Positions 21,015 through 30,548 of a DNA stretch of 40,248 bases are shown piece by piece; the first letter of the stretch is position 1; every line of letters begins with the position of its first letter. The stretch is from Verrucomicrobiota bacterium (GTDB lineage: Bacteria; Verrucomicrobiota; Verrucomicrobiia; Opitutales; UBA953). The DNA lies in the NCBI GenBank assembly GCA_030831965.1, contig JAURJZ010000036.1:1-40248 (forward strand), written 5' to 3'. The position numbers and the translations under genes are program-made. The notes below the pieces were generated by a model. It made no database searches. It was given only the letters and a program-made list of their open reading frames with translations, and was not told the DNA's origin.

Positions 21015-21932
21015 TCAGCCGCGGGCGCGGAAGTGCTCCACGGTGGCCCTGAGGCCCTCGGCGACGGAATGGGCGGGCTTCCAGCCGGCGGCCTGGAGCT
21101 TGTCGGACGAGGCCATGGAGTGGCGCACGTCGCCGAGGCGCTCGGGCCTGTGCTCGATGGCCGAGGCGGAGCCGGTGAGGCGGAGGACTTCCCGGGCGAG
21201 CTCGAGGACGGTCATCTTGCGGCCGTAGCCGACGTTGTAGGTGCCGGCGGCGGCCTCGTGGGTGGCGGCGAAGACGAGGGCGCCGACGATGTCCTTGACG
21301 TAGATGAAATCGCGGGTGGCGCCGCCGTCGCCGAAGATCGTGATGGCGTCGCCGCGGAGGGCTTTCTCGATGAAGATGGGGACGGCGGCGGCGTAGGGGG
21401 ACGCGGGGTCCTGGCGCGGGCCGAAGACGTTGAAGAAGCGGAGGCTGGCGGTGGCGAGGCCGCGCTCGCGGTGGAACATCTCGAGGTAGTACTCGCCGTC
21501 GAGCTTGGTCACGGCGTAGGGCGACTTGGGCTCGGGGAGCATCGTCTCGACCTTGGGGACGGACGGGTTGTCGCCGTAGATGGCGGCGGAGGAGGCGAGG
21601 ACGACCTTGCGGACCTTGGCCTCGGCGGCGGCCTCGAGGAGGTGGAGGGTCCCGGTGGCGTTGATCTCGACGCACTCGCGGGGTTTGGACATGGACTCCG
21701 GCACGGAGATCATGGCGGCGAGGTGGAAGACGAGGTCGACGCCGCGCAGGGCGCGGTCGAGGGCGGCGCGGTCGAGGATGGAACCCTCGACGAGGTCGAC
21801 CCTCAGACCGTCGAGGTTGCGGCGGTGGCCGGAGCGGAAGTTGTCGAGCACGACGACCTCGGCCTTGCCCTGGAAGTGCTCGGCGATGTGGGAGCCGATG
21901 AAGCCGGCGCCGCCGGTGATGAGGACGCGCAT
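21015..21932 (-). CDS. NAD-dependent sugar epimerase (GalE/UDP-HexNAc 4-epimerase-like)
   Basis: A 305-residue extended SDR enzyme. The NAD site is TGGAGFIG (residues 6-13), and the catalytic Ser/Tyr/Lys are in LASSAAIYGDN (Ser114-115) and YxxxK at Tyr139-Lys143. SLRFFNVFGPRQDP and DFIYVKD are typical of UDP-sugar 4-epimerases. It is last in the valS-led run and starts four bases (CCCC) after the NahK-like gene, so it probably interconverts UDP-GlcNAc and UDP-GalNAc or UDP-Glc and UDP-Gal. Exact substrate is not resolved. A dTDP-glucose dehydratase is less likely. Confidence 0.88.
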   Translation of the reverse strand: MRVLITGGAGFIGSHIAEHFQGKAEVVVLDNFRSGHRRNLDGLRVDLVEGSILDRAALDRALRGVDLVFHLAAMISVPESMSKPRECVEINATGTLHLLEAAAEAKVRKVVLASSAAIYGDNPSVPKVETMLPEPKSPYAVTKLDGEYYLEMFHRERGLATASLRFFNVFGPRQDPASPYAAAVPIFIEKALRGDAITIFGDGGATRDFIYVKDIVGALVFAATHEAAAGTYNVGYGRKMTVLELAREVLRLTGSASAIEHRPERLGDVRHSMASSDKLQAAGWKPAHSVAEGLRATVEHFRARG

Positions 21933-21936
21933 GGGG

Positions 21937-23049
21937 TCAGGACTTGGCCACGAGGGCCTGGAGGGCGGGAAGGCGGGCCTCGATGAGCTCGACGAGGCGG
22001 AGCTGGGTGCGGCACCGGTCGAGGTTGTGGCCGGGGCGCTTGACCTTGAAGTAGACGTCGCCCTCGAGCCAGTCGGTGAGGAAGCGCATGCCGACCTCGA
22101 GGGTCATGAGCTTGCCGCCGAAGGGCAGGAGCTCGCGCTCGCGGGCGGTGAGGAAGGCGCCGGCGCTGGAGAGGTAGCCGGAGACGAGGGCCTCGGCCAT
22201 GGGCATCTGCAGGGCGACCTTGGAGAGGTCGGTCTCATCCTCGGCGGCGGGGGAGGTGGAGGTCCGCACGAGGTCGCCGAAGTCGTAGAGGGCGGAGCCG
22301 GGCATGACGGTGTCGAGGTCGATGACGCAGACGCCCTCCTGGGTGGCGTCGTCGAGCAGGACGTTGTTGAGCTTGGTGTCGTTGTGGGTGACGCGCTCGG
22401 GGATCTCGCCCTTGGCGATGCCGTCGGTGACGACGGCCATGTCGGCCGCTCGGGCCAGGACGAAGTCGACCTCCCGGGCCACGCCCTTGGCCCGGCCGTG
22501 GGCGTCGGCCTTGAGCGCCTGCCGGAAGCGGGCGAAGCGGGAGGGGGTGTGGTGGAAGTCGGGGATGGTCTCGGCGAGGCGGCCTCCGGGGAGGTCCGCG
22601 ACCAGCGCCTGGAAGGCGCCGAAGGCGCGGGCGGCCTCGCGGGCCTGGGCGGGGTCGCGGATGATGTCGTGGCCGGTGGCGCCCTCGACGAAGAGGTAGC
22701 AGCGCCAGCGGTTGCCCTCGGGGTCGGTGTGCCAGGCCTTGCCGGAACGGGTGGGGACGAGGGTGAGGGCGCGGCGGGTGGCGTCGGGCGCGCCGGCTTG
22801 GCGGAGCTTGGCCTGGGCGTGCTCGCAGACCCGGGCGACGTTGGTCATGAGGCCGTCCGGGTCCCTGAAGATGGCGTGGTTGATGCGCTGGAGGATGTAG
22901 CGGACGGGGGTGCCGCCCTGGCTCATCCGGAGGCAGAAGGTGTCGTTGATGTGCCCGCTTCCGTAGGGGTCGGCGGCGACGTAGTCGCCCTGGAGGGCGA
23001 AGGCCGAGGCGACGGCGCGGGTGTCGAAGGTCCGGGAGGGCGCGGCCAT
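21937..23049 (-). CDS. nahK: N-acetylhexosamine 1-kinase-like phosphotransferase (NahK/LnpB)
   Basis: A 370-residue APH/choline-kinase-fold protein that matches the Bifidobacterium N-acetylhexosamine 1-kinase along its length as I recall that sequence: DPYGSGHINDTF (residue 28 onward), RYILQRINHAIF, the catalytic-loop motif THNDTKLNNVLLDD (221-234), VIDLDTVMPGSALYDFGD (242-259) and the C-terminal EVGMRFLTDWLEGDVYFKVK. NahK phosphorylates the anomeric O1 of GlcNAc and GalNAc with ATP. The start MAAPSRTFDTRAV at 23049 follows CCCCCTCCC. The adjacent nucleotidyltransferase and epimerase give the expected downstream steps. Family assignment is strong; sugar specificity is inferred. Confidence 0.88.
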   Translation of the reverse strand: MAAPSRTFDTRAVASAFALQGDYVAADPYGSGHINDTFCLRMSQGGTPVRYILQRINHAIFRDPDGLMTNVARVCEHAQAKLRQAGAPDATRRALTLVPTRSGKAWHTDPEGNRWRCYLFVEGATGHDIIRDPAQAREAARAFGAFQALVADLPGGRLAETIPDFHHTPSRFARFRQALKADAHGRAKGVAREVDFVLARAADMAVVTDGIAKGEIPERVTHNDTKLNNVLLDDATQEGVCVIDLDTVMPGSALYDFGDLVRTSTSPAAEDETDLSKVALQMPMAEALVSGYLSSAGAFLTARERELLPFGGKLMTLEVGMRFLTDWLEGDVYFKVKRPGHNLDRCRTQLRLVELIEARLPALQALVAKS

Positions 23050-23063
23050 GGGAGGGGGCGGGC

Positions 23064-23972
23064 TCAGGCCCAGAGATTGGGCGGGTAGTCGCCGCGGGCG
23101 ATGAGCTGGGCGAGCCTCGCCTGGACGGCGGGCTTGTCCTCCTTGTAGGTGACGCCGAACCACTCCGAGGAGGTGCGGAGGACGCGGCAGGTGGCGAGGC
23201 GCTCGCGGACGAGCTGGCCGACGGCCATGGGGATGTAGCTCTCGCCCCTGAGCTCCTTGCCGGAGCGGTGGAGGAACTCGAGGAAGAGGCGGTCGAGGTG
23301 GTCGAAGAGGCGGGGGGTGAAGCCCCACATGTTCATGGAGACGGGCTCGTCGCCGGTGAGGTCGACGGTGGAGCCGTCGTCGCGGGTGTGGCGGGCGCCG
23401 CCGGGGACCTTGGCGATCCGGGTCATCTCCTCGATGTCAGTGAGGAGGCCGGCGGCGTCGGTCTGGCAGACGCCGCGGGCGACGGTGCCGTGGTCGGAGA
23501 GGGTGTTGCGGAGGGTGAAGCCGACCATGGAGAAGTCGGACCCGCGGGGGTCGGCGGCCTGGAGGAAGCGGGCGAGGGTGGCGTAGGCGTCGCGGCCGTA
23601 GAAGTCGTCGGCGTTGATGACGGCGAAGTTCTCGCGGACGACGCCCTTGGCGCAGAGGATGGCGTGGGTGGTGCCCCAGGGCTTCTCGCGCCCGGGCGGC
23701 ACGGTCCAGCCGGCGGGGAGCCTGTCGAGGGTCTGGAAGGCGAGGTCGACCGGCACGCGCCCGGCGAACTTGGCGGCGACCTGGTCGCGGAAGGCCTGCT
23801 CGAAGTCGGGGCGGATGATGAAGACGACCCGGCCGAAGCCGGCGCGGAGGGCGTCGTGCACGGAGTAGTCGAGGATGGTCTCGCCGGAGGGGCCCATCGG
23901 GTCGATCTGCTTGAGCCCCCCGTAGCGGGAGCCCATGCCTGCGGCCAGGACGAGGAGGGTGGGGGCTGGCAT
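23064..23972 (-). CDS. Sugar-1-phosphate nucleotidyltransferase-like protein
   Basis: A 302-residue nucleotidyltransferase of the GT-A-like fold. The N-terminal signature LAAGMGSRYGGLKQ (residues 9-22) binds the NTP, and NADDFYG near residue 124 provides metal-binding Asp residues. The other parts (PSGETILDYSVHDALRAG, WGTTHAILCAKG) are as in GalU/RfbA-type enzymes. It probably converts the HexNAc-1-P made by the neighbouring NahK-like kinase to UDP-HexNAc. It begins one base after the stop of the PIG-L gene (TGACATG). Substrate and nucleotide are not proven by sequence. Confidence 0.85.
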   Translation of the reverse strand: MPAPTLLVLAAGMGSRYGGLKQIDPMGPSGETILDYSVHDALRAGFGRVVFIIRPDFEQAFRDQVAAKFAGRVPVDLAFQTLDRLPAGWTVPPGREKPWGTTHAILCAKGVVRENFAVINADDFYGRDAYATLARFLQAADPRGSDFSMVGFTLRNTLSDHGTVARGVCQTDAAGLLTDIEEMTRIAKVPGGARHTRDDGSTVDLTGDEPVSMNMWGFTPRLFDHLDRLFLEFLHRSGKELRGESYIPMAVGQLVRERLATCRVLRTSSEWFGVTYKEDKPAVQARLAQLIARGDYPPNLWA

Positions 23973-23973
23973 G

Positions 23974-24819
23974 TCAGAGCGACTTGCGGATGGCGGCGGA
24001 GATGTCGGCCTTGAGGCGGTCGACGAAGCCGAGGGTGTAGGCCTCGATGTCGAGCGAGGGGTCCAGGACGAGGGGGGTGAGGTCCATGGCCCATTGGAGG
24101 TGGGTCTCGGCGTCGGACGCGTAGGCGTCGTGGAAGGTGGCGTTGGCGAGGCGGCGGCCCATGACGGCGAGGTCGTAGCGCTTGCCGCCGGTGATCTGGG
24201 TGTCGAAGACGCCGTTGAGGGCGGCCGCGAGGTTGGGGCTCTGGGAGACCGGCAGGACGACCTTGTCGGCGTCGGTCAGCCAGTCGAGGCTGCGCCAGAC
24301 CTCGCAGCCGAGCACGCGGGCGGGGCGCCGGTCGGCGGGGAGGGCGCGCATGGCCTCGAGGGCGCGGAGGGTGACGCCGACGTGCGTCGGGTGCTTGTCG
24401 GCGGGGTTGTGGAGGTAGACGACCTCGGGGCGGGCGGCCTCGAGGATGGTCCTGAGGTCGTCGCGGGGTGCGGCGGCCCTGGCGTCGCGCACGTCCTTGC
24501 TGGGGAAGCCGAGCTGGGCGACGAAGCTGAACTCGCCGACGGTGGCGGCGCGGCGCTGCTCCCGCACGCGCTCGGCGGCGAGCTGCTCGTCGGTCCAGTC
24601 CTTGTAGGGGCCGGCGCGCGAGCTGCCCTTGCCGTCGGTCGCGATCACGCCCCCGAACCACTTGTCCTGCCGGTGGAAGCACTCGGCGATCCCGTGGTAG
24701 GCCATGAACTCGAGGTCATCCTGGTGGGCGCCGATGCCGAGGTGGGTGGTGCGGGAGACGGCCTCGGGCAGGGCCTTCCCGTCGGGGATGTGGAGGTCGG
24801 CCTTGGGGTTGAGTCGCAT
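23974..24819 (-). CDS. PIG-L family deacetylase
   Basis: A 281-residue LmbE/PIG-L zinc deacetylase. The zinc motif reads GIGAHQDDLEFMAYHG (His32, Asp34-Asp35; canonical AHPDDE has Pro-Asp-Asp-Glu, here Gln-Asp-Asp-Leu-Glu), and the second motif is HNPADKHPTH (137-146) with the third His ligand. Such enzymes remove the acetyl group from GlcNAc moieties, including free or oligomeric GlcNAc. The ATG at 24819 follows AATTCCCC. It sits in the amino-sugar operon with nagB and a sugar kinase but no nagA, so it may provide the deacetylation step. That role is an inference. Confidence 0.88.
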   Translation of the reverse strand: MRLNPKADLHIPDGKALPEAVSRTTHLGIGAHQDDLEFMAYHGIAECFHRQDKWFGGVIATDGKGSSRAGPYKDWTDEQLAAERVREQRRAATVGEFSFVAQLGFPSKDVRDARAAAPRDDLRTILEAARPEVVYLHNPADKHPTHVGVTLRALEAMRALPADRRPARVLGCEVWRSLDWLTDADKVVLPVSQSPNLAAALNGVFDTQITGGKRYDLAVMGRRLANATFHDAYASDAETHLQWAMDLTPLVLDPSLDIEAYTLGFVDRLKADISAAIRKSL

Positions 24820-24826
24820 GGGGAAT

Positions 24827-25480
24827 TCAGCCGGCGACGGCGGCGCCGTCGAAGAGGCGGGTGTAGGCCACGGCATAGGCCAGATAGGCGAGAGGCGCGG
24901 TCAGGAGCACGCCGACGCCGCAGAGCAGCAGGCCGGAGACGGCCACAAGGGAGAGGACGAGGAAGAGGAGGATGGCCCAGCCGAGATGGGCGGTGAGGGT
25001 GCGGCGGCTGATTTCCATGCATTCCCAGAAGCTGCCCCGCCGGTCGGCGAGCAGCCCCCAGGAGGCGCCCCAGGCCAGGGCGAGGTAGAGTCCGGGCAGG
25101 ATGCAGAGCGCCAGCCCGAGGGCGACGAGGATGGCGTTGACGAGGTAGAGGGCGAGGGCCTCGCCGAAGCGGGGGAACTGGGAGAACAGGAGGGCGACCG
25201 AGGGGCGCTGGCCGCGGGCGCGGGCGAGGAGCCAGGCGGCCGCGCCGAGCCCGAGGGCGGGGGCCACGAGGATGCCGATGGCGATTCCCAGGAACGGGAT
25301 GAGGCTGAGGACGCCGACGGCGCCGCCGAGCACGACCAGGATGAGGAAGCCGCCGAGGATTCCCCAGAAGTCGGACCTGAGCAGATGCCAAGCCTGGCCG
25401 AGGCAGGCGCCGACATCGAGGGGGTCGCGGGCCAGCTTGGCCTGGTTGACGAGGGCTTCCTGGGAGGGGTTGAGGGGCAT
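24827..25480 (-). CDS. Small integral membrane protein of unknown function
   Basis: A 217-residue protein with about five or six hydrophobic helices (IPFLGIAIGILVAPALGLGA, LYLVNAILVALGLALCILPG, GWAILLFLVLSLVAVSG). A cytoplasmic N-terminus, MPLNPSQEALVNQAKLARD, precedes them. It resembles YciC/DUF975-like small membrane proteins in general shape, but I cannot name it. The ATG at 25480 follows ACCCTCCC and comes 7 bp after the ROK gene stop. A role in sugar uptake or scaffolding of the operon's enzymes cannot be tested from sequence. Confidence 0.75.
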   Translation of the reverse strand: MPLNPSQEALVNQAKLARDPLDVGACLGQAWHLLRSDFWGILGGFLILVVLGGAVGVLSLIPFLGIAIGILVAPALGLGAAAWLLARARGQRPSVALLFSQFPRFGEALALYLVNAILVALGLALCILPGLYLALAWGASWGLLADRRGSFWECMEISRRTLTAHLGWAILLFLVLSLVAVSGLLLCGVGVLLTAPLAYLAYAVAYTRLFDGAAVAG

Positions 25481-25487
25481 GGGAGGG

Positions 25488-26888
25488 TCAGCGTCGGGAC
25501 TTGGGCAGGGAGGCGGCGGCGATGGCCTGGCCGTGGCGCTTGTCCTTCTCGTCGGGGACGACGAGGTCGATGCGGAGGGCGGGGAACTCATCCTGCAGGA
25601 CTTGGCGCGCCTTGTCGATGATGACCGAGCCGCCCTCCCCGGAGGTGACGCGGCCCATGATGAGGAGGCAGTCGTAGCGGTAAAAGTCGGCGAAGTGGGC
25701 CAGGGCGTAGCCGAAGGCGATGCCGATGGCGTCGTAGACCCGGCGGGCGCGGGGGTCGCCGGCCTTCATCAGCCGCTGGAGCTCCTCGAGCTGCTCGGGG
25801 AGCCTCATGCCGGCGGGCATGGGGATGCCGGCGAGGGGAAGGAGCCGGCCGACGCCCTGCTGGCTGAAGTATTGGACGCCGCAGCCGAGGTCGCCCGACC
25901 ACTCGTCGGCCGGGCCGCCGGGGCGGTAGTCGACGGGGACGAAGGCGAGCTCGCTGAGCCAGTTGGTCAGGTTGCCGTGGGTGTCGACGTAGCCGGCCGC
26001 GACGGAGGTGCCCATGGCGATGCCGAGGACGGAGTTGCGGTTGAGCGACATCGATGCGGCGAGGGCGGTGACATCGCCGTCGTTGATGACCTCGAAGGGC
26101 ACCCCGGGCCAGCGCTTGGCGATCTCGAGGAACATGGGTTTCACGCGGGTCTCGAAGACCGCGGGGTCCTTGATGCCGCGGAAGAGGGAGGCGGCGCGGA
26201 CGGTGTTGTTGATGTAGACGCCGGCGGCGGAGCCGCCGATGGCGTCGACGCGCGGCAGGTGCCTGGCGGCGAGCTCGAGGGAGTGCACGATGCCGTCGAA
26301 CTGGTACTGGGGGTCCTCCTGGAAGTAGGGGTCCCACTTGACCTCCTCGGAGAAGACGACCTTGCCGTCGATGACGGCGGCGCACTTGCGGTCGGAGCCG
26401 CCGAGGTCGAAGCCGATGCGGCAGCCGTCGAGGTTGCGCCCGAGGGGAAGGTGGGAGGCGCTCTCGGCGGGGAGGTCGGCCTCGGCGCAGGCGAGGAAGG
26501 AGGGGAGGCGGTCGAAGAGCCTGCGGACGAAGTCGGCGTCGAAGGCGCGCTCCCCGCCGGGACGGTAGAGGTCGGCGAGGAGCTTGGCGAAGTGGGCGGC
26601 GTGGGGGCCGGCGAGGCGGACGGTGTCGCCGCCGCGCGCCCAGAGGAGGAACTTCACGGTGCGCTCGACGTGGGTGCGGTTGAGGGCGTCGAAGCCGGCG
26701 CCGGGGGGCAGGGTGCGCGTGCGGTGGACGGAGGCGGTGCCGTCGGGGCGAGAGAGGGCGAGGGCGAGGGGGGCTGAGCCCGGGGTGCGGTCGCAGAGGG
26801 CGAGGTACTCGCGGGTCCAGAGGGAGGCGGGGACGAGGCCCGGGTCGATCTCGGCGACATGGCGGGGGCGGAGGGCGAGGCTGTCCAT
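25488..26888 (-). CDS. ROK-type sugar kinase with long N-terminal extension
   Basis: A 466-residue protein with an actin-fold sugar kinase domain. The phosphate-1 motif GFDLGGSDRKCAAVIDGKVV lies near residue 160, and VINDGDVTALAASMS has the catalytic Asp region (ROK: E-N-D-x-N). GIAMGTSVAAGYVD follows as a phosphate-2 motif. The usual ROK zinc motif CxCGxxGCxE is not seen, although GDLGCGVQYFSQ is in the corresponding area. The first ~155 residues have no counterpart in standard ROK kinases. It lies directly after nagB, so GlcNAc or GlcN is a plausible substrate. A transcriptional ROK repressor is unlikely, since no HTH is visible. Confidence 0.8.
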   Translation of the reverse strand: MDSLALRPRHVAEIDPGLVPASLWTREYLALCDRTPGSAPLALALSRPDGTASVHRTRTLPPGAGFDALNRTHVERTVKFLLWARGGDTVRLAGPHAAHFAKLLADLYRPGGERAFDADFVRRLFDRLPSFLACAEADLPAESASHLPLGRNLDGCRIGFDLGGSDRKCAAVIDGKVVFSEEVKWDPYFQEDPQYQFDGIVHSLELAARHLPRVDAIGGSAAGVYINNTVRAASLFRGIKDPAVFETRVKPMFLEIAKRWPGVPFEVINDGDVTALAASMSLNRNSVLGIAMGTSVAAGYVDTHGNLTNWLSELAFVPVDYRPGGPADEWSGDLGCGVQYFSQQGVGRLLPLAGIPMPAGMRLPEQLEELQRLMKAGDPRARRVYDAIGIAFGYALAHFADFYRYDCLLIMGRVTSGEGGSVIIDKARQVLQDEFPALRIDLVVPDEKDKRHGQAIAAASLPKSRR

Positions 26889-26893
26889 GGCGT

Positions 26894-27643
26894 TCAGCGG
26901 GGGGAGAGCTTGGCGGCGGCGGCGGGGTCGAGGACGAAGTCGCAGGCGGGGTGGCGCTGGAGCCAGCTGGCCGGGCAGTCGTCCGAGGGGGTGTCCTCGG
27001 CGGCGCGGCGGACGATGTCGGCCTTGCCCTCGCCCCAGGCGAGGAGGACGACGCGGCGGCAGTCGAGGATGGTGCCGACGCCCATGGTTACGGCGTGGCG
27101 GGGGACCTTGGCGATGTCGCCGAAGAAGGCGGCGTTGTCGCGGCGGGTGAGCTCGTCGAGGTGGACCTGCCGGGTGCGGGTGGCGGGGCCGGCGGGGGGC
27201 TCGTTGAAGCCGATGTGGCCGGTGCGGCCGATGCCGAGGACCTGGAGGTCGATGCCGCCGGCGGCCAAGATGGCGCGCTCGTAGGCGGCGGAGGCGGCGG
27301 CGGGGTCGGGGGCGAGGCCGTCGGGCACGTGGGTCTCGGCCGGGGGGATGTCGACGTGGTCGAAGAGCTGGCGCTGCATGAACCAGCGGTAGGATTGGTC
27401 GTGGCCGGGTCCGAGGCCGGAGTATTCGTCGAGGTTGAAGGTGGTGACGTGGCGGAAGGAGAGGCCCTCCTCGCGGTGGAGGCGCACGAGCTCGGCGTAG
27501 AGCGGGATGGGGGTGGAGCCGGTGGCGAGGCCGAGGACGGCGCGACGGCCGGCCCGGGCGCGGTCGCGGATGAGGCCGGCGATGTCGGCGGCGACGGCCG
27601 TGACGGCCGCGGCCCTGTCGGGATGGACGCGCAGCCGGATCAT
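26894..27643 (-). CDS. nagB: Glucosamine-6-phosphate deaminase
   Basis: A 249-residue NagB, converting GlcN-6-P to fructose-6-P and ammonia. Motifs are LGLATGSTPIPLYAELVRLH, TTFNLDEYSGLGPGHDQSY and GIGRTGHIGFNEPP. In E. coli numbering, which fits without gaps here, Asp72, His143 and Glu148 are present, but the position of Asp141 is Thr141. Some NagB enzymes carry Asn there, so activity is not excluded. The ATG overlaps the valS stop (ATGA). Confidence in family is high; kinetic consequence of Thr141 is unknown. Confidence 0.93.
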   Translation of the reverse strand: MIRLRVHPDRAAAVTAVAADIAGLIRDRARAGRRAVLGLATGSTPIPLYAELVRLHREEGLSFRHVTTFNLDEYSGLGPGHDQSYRWFMQRQLFDHVDIPPAETHVPDGLAPDPAAASAAYERAILAAGGIDLQVLGIGRTGHIGFNEPPAGPATRTRQVHLDELTRRDNAAFFGDIAKVPRHAVTMGVGTILDCRRVVLLAWGEGKADIVRRAAEDTPSDDCPASWLQRHPACDFVLDPAAAAKLSPR

Positions 27644-30438: not shown

Positions 30439-30548
30439 AAAAGGGCAAGCCAGGCCCCATGCGACGGGGCGTCGGCGCAACCCGCCAGGTCCGGAAGGAA
30501 GCAACGGACGCCGGCGGACCGTGCGCCGTGGCAAGCCTGGCCCCTTTT
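30439..30548 (+). ncRNA. ffs: Signal recognition particle RNA (4.5S-like, small bacterial type)
   Basis: The apical domain is plain: CCAGGTCCGGAAGGAAGCA at about 30483-30502, with the GGAA tetraloop and the conserved right-hand GGAAGCA strand that binds Ffh. Flanking halves pair over the whole length: AAAAGGG (30439-30445) with CCCTTTT (30542-30548), GCCAGGC with GCCTGGC, and CCGCC with GGCGG near the tip. The length of about 110 nt fits E. coli 4.5S RNA. The terminal stem followed by T residues could end transcription. Boundaries are by pairing, so accurate to a few bases. It is not coding; the overlapping short frame is spurious. Confidence 0.9.

Follow-up and report, generated by a model that had tools for sequence, protein, structure and literature searches.

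A predicted PIG-L-type deacetylase in the place of NagA in a putative N-acetylglucosamine operon from Verrucomicrobiota

NagA deacetylates N-acetylglucosamine 6-phosphate (GlcNAc-6-P) and is a standard marker for the use of N-acetylglucosamine (GlcNAc) in genomes. Kinases of the ROK family, one of which is encoded in the locus described here, carry a zinc motif of the form CxCGxxGC. Deacetylases of the PIG-L/LmbE superfamily share the motif HxDD, where x is any residue, and one of them, the archaeal enzyme Dac, acts on GlcNAc2 (PMC4101496). A dependence of Akkermansia muciniphila on GlcNAc has been published (PMC5902328). A role as GlcNAc-6-P deacetylase for PIG-L proteins was not found in the open-access literature searched.

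The operon and its predicted products

The window (the whole stretch of DNA that was analyzed, 40,248 nucleotides) is contig 12 of a host assembly of 1.85 Mb in 96 contigs, 98.35% complete. An operon with nagB and a sugar kinase and without nagA had been described there in an earlier note on this DNA, which was confirmed by family models and a genome search. From nagB to the epimerase gene, the following genes lie head to tail on the minus strand, and the short gaps and overlaps between them suggest a single transcript.

30448–30545, plus strand: bacterial small SRP RNA, upstream of valS
30378–27640, minus strand: valyl-tRNA synthetase (valS), preceding nagB with a 4-base overlap
26894–27643, minus strand: nagB, glucosamine-6-phosphate deaminase, 249 aa (TIGR00502 and the NagB half of NF002557)
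25488–26888, minus strand: ROK-fold kinase, 466 aa, proposed GlcNAc kinase (predicted model and fold match)
24827–25480, minus strand: small membrane protein (open reading frame; probable start at 25480)
23974–24819, minus strand: PIG-L/LmbE-type N-deacetylase, 281 aa, proposed GlcNAc-6-P deacetylase (PF02585, metal site, model)
23064–23972, minus strand: sugar-1-phosphate nucleotidyltransferase (NT), 302 aa (PF00483, PDB 3pnn)
21937–23049, minus strand: NahK-like N-acetylhexosamine 1-kinase, probable start at 23049 (PF01636, PDB 4ocj)
21015–21932, minus strand: GalE-like NAD-dependent sugar-nucleotide epimerase, 305 aa (PF01370)

The PIG-L open reading frame (23974–24876) encodes 300 aa. The ATG at 24876, given in the list of reading frames, adds 19 residues that are absent from PIG-L homologs, and the start aligned with those homologs, at 24819, yields the 281-aa protein. 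With 56 bits against PF02585 (cut-off 28.2), the protein belongs to the superfamily. In an alignment of 41 members, the metal ligands H32, D34, D35, H143 and H146 were invariant, matching the HxDD motif followed by later histidines, as were R68, R84, R176, K186 and K213. R84 is matched by an arginine of LnmX and Dac in profile alignments and R68 is unmatched; a phosphate-binding role for these invariant Arg and Lys residues is a guess. The sequence HQDDLE (H32-Q-D-D-L-E37), which the earlier note had read as a variant of HPDDE, is indeed present, but it is not an odd one, since position 33 is Q in 36 of the 41 aligned members, P in 4 and H in 1. Q being the most frequent letter there, HQDD was rejected as a special variant.

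An AlphaFold2 model of PIG-L (pLDDT 95.9) showed the Rossmann-type fold of LmbE, superimposing on BshB (6p2t; Z 24.6, 2.2 Å, 204 residues), on BC1534 (2ixd; Z 24.5, 2.2 Å, 204 residues) and on Dac (8bgn; Z 21.9, 2.9 Å, 218 residues). In the fold comparison the archaeal Dac enzymes were 15–17% identical to PIG-L, and a profile comparison also matched Dac (E 6e-5). A PDB search with the single sequence gave no match, whereas profile and fold searches succeeded. The PIG-L enzymes of chitin-degrading archaea, cited in the earlier note as acting on GlcNAc or its oligomers, have their fold in common with this protein, Dac being no nearer than BshB or BC1534. BshB itself, the bacillithiol enzyme, was tried as an identity for PIG-L and rejected, with 20.3 bits against TIGR04001 (cut-off 182.5) and 22.2 against TIGR04000 (195.25). 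By sequence and model, the protein is predicted to be a metal-dependent deacetylase of the PIG-L/LmbE superfamily.

The sugar kinase had been called a ROK kinase, and the predicted model bore this out, although the protein falls below the Pfam ROK cut-off. It matched no Pfam or NCBIfam family at E 0.001 and reached 16.9 bits against PF00480 (cut-off 22.9), a model that matched 21 of 34 members of the kinase family (the window protein plus 33 of 40 kinase references) at E ≤ 0.1. In its model (pLDDT 93.5) a ROK fold spans residues 154–466, preceded by ca. 150 extra N-terminal residues, and superimposes on the ROK glucokinase 2qm1 (Z 26.6, 3.1 Å, 292 residues) and on the GlcNAc kinase 7p9l (Z 25.6, 2.8 Å, 282 residues). 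At the site of CxCGxxGC the translation, inspected by eye, reads DEWSGDLGCGVQ, so that the zinc motif is missing. A PDB search with the single kinase sequence returned a chance match only, and profile and fold searches did match.

NagB of the window scored 244.5 bits against the equivalog model TIGR00502 (cut-off 236.9). Its best match was the NagB half of NF002557, at 305 bits, under the cut-off of 384 for this fusion of NagB and a PIG-L domain. Such long proteins occur in relatives: in 10 of 40 fetched PIG-L loci (out of 43 places, the window's own and those of G038 and G056 being set aside) nagB encodes ca. 630–650 aa, and the two that were scanned, from L034 and L045, belong to NF002557 and contain a PIG-L domain. 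The fused domain was considered as the active deacetylase of these relatives and rejected, since 8 of the 10 Opitutales fusions have Glu (EPxDD or similar) at the position of the first zinc-binding His. The Glu-bearing fusions are those of L034, L035, L036, L040, L046, L051, L061 and L066; HPDDD is kept in L045 and L057. As the window NagB is closest to the NagB half of NF002557, it may derive from a fusion that shed its decayed domain.

The nucleotidyltransferase scored 25.4 bits against PF00483 (cut-off 21.2) and matched PDB 3pnn, a protein without a named function, at E 4.1e-106. The NahK-like kinase, with 72.1 bits against PF01636, is by its match to the N-acetylhexosamine 1-kinase 4ocj (E 2.4e-94, residues 25–381) a homolog of that enzyme, and 1-kinase activity on GlcNAc or GalNAc is predicted for it. 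The epimerase scored 210.4 bits against PF01370, and its best NCBIfam match was galE, under the cut-off (186.6 versus 262.3). Family searches with the operon genes detected neither a phosphorylase nor GalT. The membrane protein, inserted between kinase and PIG-L in the window, matched NF041043 weakly; in G102, a genome of the same family, kinase and PIG-L are adjacent and their matches overlap.

PIG-L and nagA beside the same kinase

A search of the entire host genome for nagA with TIGR00221, the check named in the earlier note, gave no match at E ≤ 0.001. At this threshold all 14 control genomes gave a match, 7 of them over the cut-off. Likewise, at E ≤ 1e-20 nagA was found neither in G102 nor in G145, the nearest named relative (the uncultured Opitutae assembly LaPlata bin-3548), whose PIG-L and kinase are 87 and 91% identical to those of the window; this closeness suggests a host near Opitutales within Verrucomicrobiota.

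Of 145 genomes of the phylum, 40 contain PIG-L (E ≤ 1e-20), 97 the kinase and 117 nagB; 98 have a nagA match, which is over the cut-off in 68. Counted per genome, nagA over the cut-off was present in 4 of the 40 PIG-L genomes versus 64 of the 105 others (Fisher 2e-8). At the family level the figures were 4 of 18 PIG-L families versus 11 of 25 others (p 0.20, not significant), and when weaker matches were included 17 of the 40 PIG-L genomes had one. In the PIG-L genomes G114, G120, G129 and G132, nagA encodes proteins 30–33% identical to the kinase-linked NagAs and lies outside any kinase cluster (L192–L195), with a SIS gene near one of them. The claim that NagA is replaced rests on the exchange of the two genes beside the kinase, and not on an anti-correlation of PIG-L and nagA.

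Where both occur in a genome of the phylum (23 cases), kinase and PIG-L are same-strand neighbours within 3 kb in 20. Among 59 genomes with the same kinase and a nagA over the cut-off, 10 have the two genes 22–88 bp apart, and in none of these 10 was a PIG-L match found. Two such loci, L182 (G061) and L184 (G006), have the gene complement of the window with nagA instead of PIG-L, the kinase-nagA pair facing NT, nahK, galE and nagB. The adjacency comparison took in a subset of the nagB places and so gives a minimum for nagB. Conserved features of the kinase are common to both settings: the PIG-L-linked kinases have 95 conserved columns, and the nagA-linked ones retain 90 of them.

In a tree of the kinase (86 of 88 rows, two identical ones having been dropped and rows shorter than ca. 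380 residues not taken; quick method, unrooted), all 10 nagA-linked kinases fell in one branch of 18 rows with support 97, together with 4 PIG-L-linked and 4 other rows. PIG-L-linked kinases make up 63 of the 86 rows and most of the tree outside that branch. This looks more like a displacement of PIG-L by nagA in one lineage than like the reverse, as far as an unrooted tree can tell. In 17 of the 40 PIG-L genomes of the phylum the kinase is missing, and on the PIG-L tree (120 of 121 rows) kinase-linked copies are mixed with unlinked ones, so that the family may also serve a further function.

Beyond the phylum, a scan of contigs for PIG-L gave 259 confirmed relatives, of which the best 80 were taken with flanks of up to 10 kb, often shorter. 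Judged by their record titles, these best 80 of 259 come from Verrucomicrobiota, Lentisphaerae, Acidobacteria, Chloroflexi, Armatimonadetes, Clostridia, Tenericutes and Aminicenantes, and kinase-PIG-L pairs recur among them in Acidobacteria, Chloroflexi, Armatimonadetes, Clostridia and others. The kinase was present in 47 of these best 80 loci, nagB in 18, nahK in 10, NT in 9 and a SIS-family protein near PIG-L in 6; nagA was found in none within the flanks covered. The whole genomes behind 37 of these 80 named loci were also surveyed for nagA, with a nagA-like match in 15 and one over the cut-off in 10. Anaerolinea thermolimosa, which carries the kinase-PIG-L pair, gave no nagA match.

A ROK-family regulator-like protein is encoded upstream of the kinase-PIG-L pair in Anaerolinea-type loci. 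In L116, L169 and L151 of Chloroflexi, genes for a ROK-family regulator, the kinase, PIG-L and an ABC transporter run in one direction, joined in L116 and L169 by a co-directional gene for a SIS-family protein. That of L169 scored 232 bits against NagB-II and 234–245 against GlmS models (isomerase half), below all cut-offs. GH20 hexosaminidases adjoin the cluster in relatives and are also encoded in the host genome. A second, kinase-free setting of PIG-L, with common neighbours (gene clusters 14–17), was seen in L062, L065, L067 and L071; two of these neighbours resemble, by eye, a release factor and PrmC.

Proposed pathway and order of the steps

The operon is proposed to break down GlcNAc. 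The ROK-fold kinase would convert GlcNAc to GlcNAc-6-P, which PIG-L, a zinc deacetylase unrelated to NagA, would deacetylate to GlcN-6-P, and NagB would turn the latter into fructose-6-P and ammonia. In a second branch, the NahK-like kinase would make GlcNAc-1-P from GlcNAc, and the nucleotidyltransferase and the GalE-like epimerase would carry it on to UDP-GlcNAc/UDP-GalNAc. Comparative genomics gives good support to a predicted PIG-L deacetylase standing in for NagA. What has been seen directly is the arrangement of the genes, their families and folds, the conserved metal site, the lack of nagA and the swapping of PIG-L and nagA next to one kinase family. All substrates and the order of the steps are what we infer: PIG-L is rather probably a non-orthologous stand-in for NagA, in the order kinase, PIG-L, NagB, and probably acts on NagA's own substrate. 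The kinase family pairs with NagA, whose substrate is GlcNAc-6-P; the expected product of the kinase is hence GlcNAc-6-P, with PIG-L as its expected recipient.

The earlier note had PIG-L replace NagA through a different sequence of reactions, GlcNAc to GlcN to GlcN-6-P. The replacement itself was supported, with PIG-L occupying NagA's slot by the same kinase and the host lacking nagA. The proposed sequence was not supported, since this kinase family stands beside true nagA in 10 genomes, in which GlcNAc-6-P is what it has to deliver, and most of the conserved kinase columns (90 of 95) are common to both groups; phosphorylation probably precedes deacetylation. Deacetylation of free GlcNAc, or of GlcNAc2, by PIG-L ahead of phosphorylation of GlcN by the kinase and the action of NagB is therefore rather unlikely, although it agrees with the fold that PIG-L has in common with archaeal Dac and Bacillus BC1534 and with the activity on GlcNAc2 given for Dac in PMC4101496. 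Adjacency of kinase and PIG-L is compatible with either order and, since a ROK kinase may accept GlcN and GlcNAc alike, the order preferred here is a probable one.

PIG-L could also serve the NahK branch or act on another substrate (GlcNAc-1-P, a sugar nucleotide, a disaccharide or a glycoconjugate), its neighbours then reflecting a looser amino-sugar theme. In the window NT and then nahK directly follow PIG-L; in L041, L047, L053, L056 and L070 PIG-L adjoins NT or nahK with no kinase alongside, and 17 PIG-L genomes lack the kinase. We nevertheless hold such a role to be improbable: among the best 80 of 259 relatives the kinase accompanies PIG-L in 47 loci, against 10 for nahK and 9 for NT, and the slot in relatives is taken by nagA and by no other enzyme. 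Finally, a nagA lost in an assembly gap or hidden in a diverged amidohydrolase, with PIG-L as an accessory, is conceivable for an assembly in 96 contigs that is 98.35% complete. The failure of TIGR00221 to match anywhere in the host at E ≤ 0.001, and the lack of nagA at E ≤ 1e-20 in both G102 and G145, make this very improbable. PIG-L as the stand-in for NagA, acting after the kinase, remains the reading that we prefer.

Amino-sugar economy and comparison with described systems

In the host genome no recognizable glmS was found (best 17 bits, for a PurF-like protein), nor a glmM over the cut-off (best 55 bits, for a mutase-family protein). The same-family genome G102 has both, about 900 bases apart (G102:C5:445523–449598), and no good glmM was found in the nearest relative, G145. 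Given their proximity in G102, a single gap in the assembly might be enough to account for the absence of both from the host. The host organism may depend on exogenous GlcNAc, and if the absence of glmS and glmM is real, NahK and the nucleotidyltransferase would constitute a route from GlcNAc to UDP-GlcNAc. Similarly, glmS was not found in Akkermansia-like genomes (genus g21, the naming being inferred), which agrees with the GlcNAc dependence of A. muciniphila described in PMC5902328.

A wider reading, which we put forward only tentatively, is that this PIG-L family is an unrecognised class of GlcNAc-6-P deacetylases working with ROK-fold GlcNAc kinases in many phyla, and that the operon is the entire amino-sugar economy of the host, NahK and NT making cell-wall UDP-GlcNAc from scavenged GlcNAc and the remainder being consumed by kinase, PIG-L and NagB. 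Should a PIG-L enzyme carry out the step of NagA in many Verrucomicrobiota, Acidobacteria, Chloroflexi and Clostridia, annotation pipelines would score these organisms as incapable of GlcNAc use and would name the enzyme after GPI-anchor synthesis. A widespread kinase family, whose window member does not reach the Pfam ROK cut-off, would then also gain a function, as would a PIG-L family without a curated name.

Among described systems, the 'GlcNAc shortcut' of Akkermansia (PMC5902328) offers a glmS-less member of Verrucomicrobiota in need of exogenous GlcNAc. The putatively Akkermansia-like genomes carry the same kinase family but, unlike the window, mostly have nagA and no PIG-L of the window family. 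The lacto-N-biose/GNB pathway of bifidobacteria resembles the locus in its close NahK homolog and GalE-like epimerase and differs in that NahK of the window follows a nucleotidyltransferase within a nagB operon. BshB and the LmbE-like BC1534 have the fold and HxDD metal site of PIG-L, whereas its scores of ca. 20–22 bits fall far from the BshB1/BshB2 equivalog cut-offs of 182–195. The archaeal Dac chitin pathway likewise has a deacetylase of the PIG-L fold (Z about 22) in an amino-sugar route; identity is 15–17%, however, and the window has nagB and a ROK-fold kinase, with phosphorylation probably coming first. NF002557 (PRK02122) unites NagB with a PIG-L domain in a single polypeptide and stands in the equivalent operons of Opitutales relatives, whereas PIG-L of the window is a separate gene of another subfamily. 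The NagA pathway (NagK/PTS, NagA, NagB) has much of its layout in common with the locus: NagB is present, a kinase precedes, the deacetylase adjoins the kinase and, in relatives, the same kinase adjoins nagA itself. The difference lies in the deacetylase, which in the window is a PIG-L/LmbE zinc enzyme instead of the amidohydrolase of TIGR00221.
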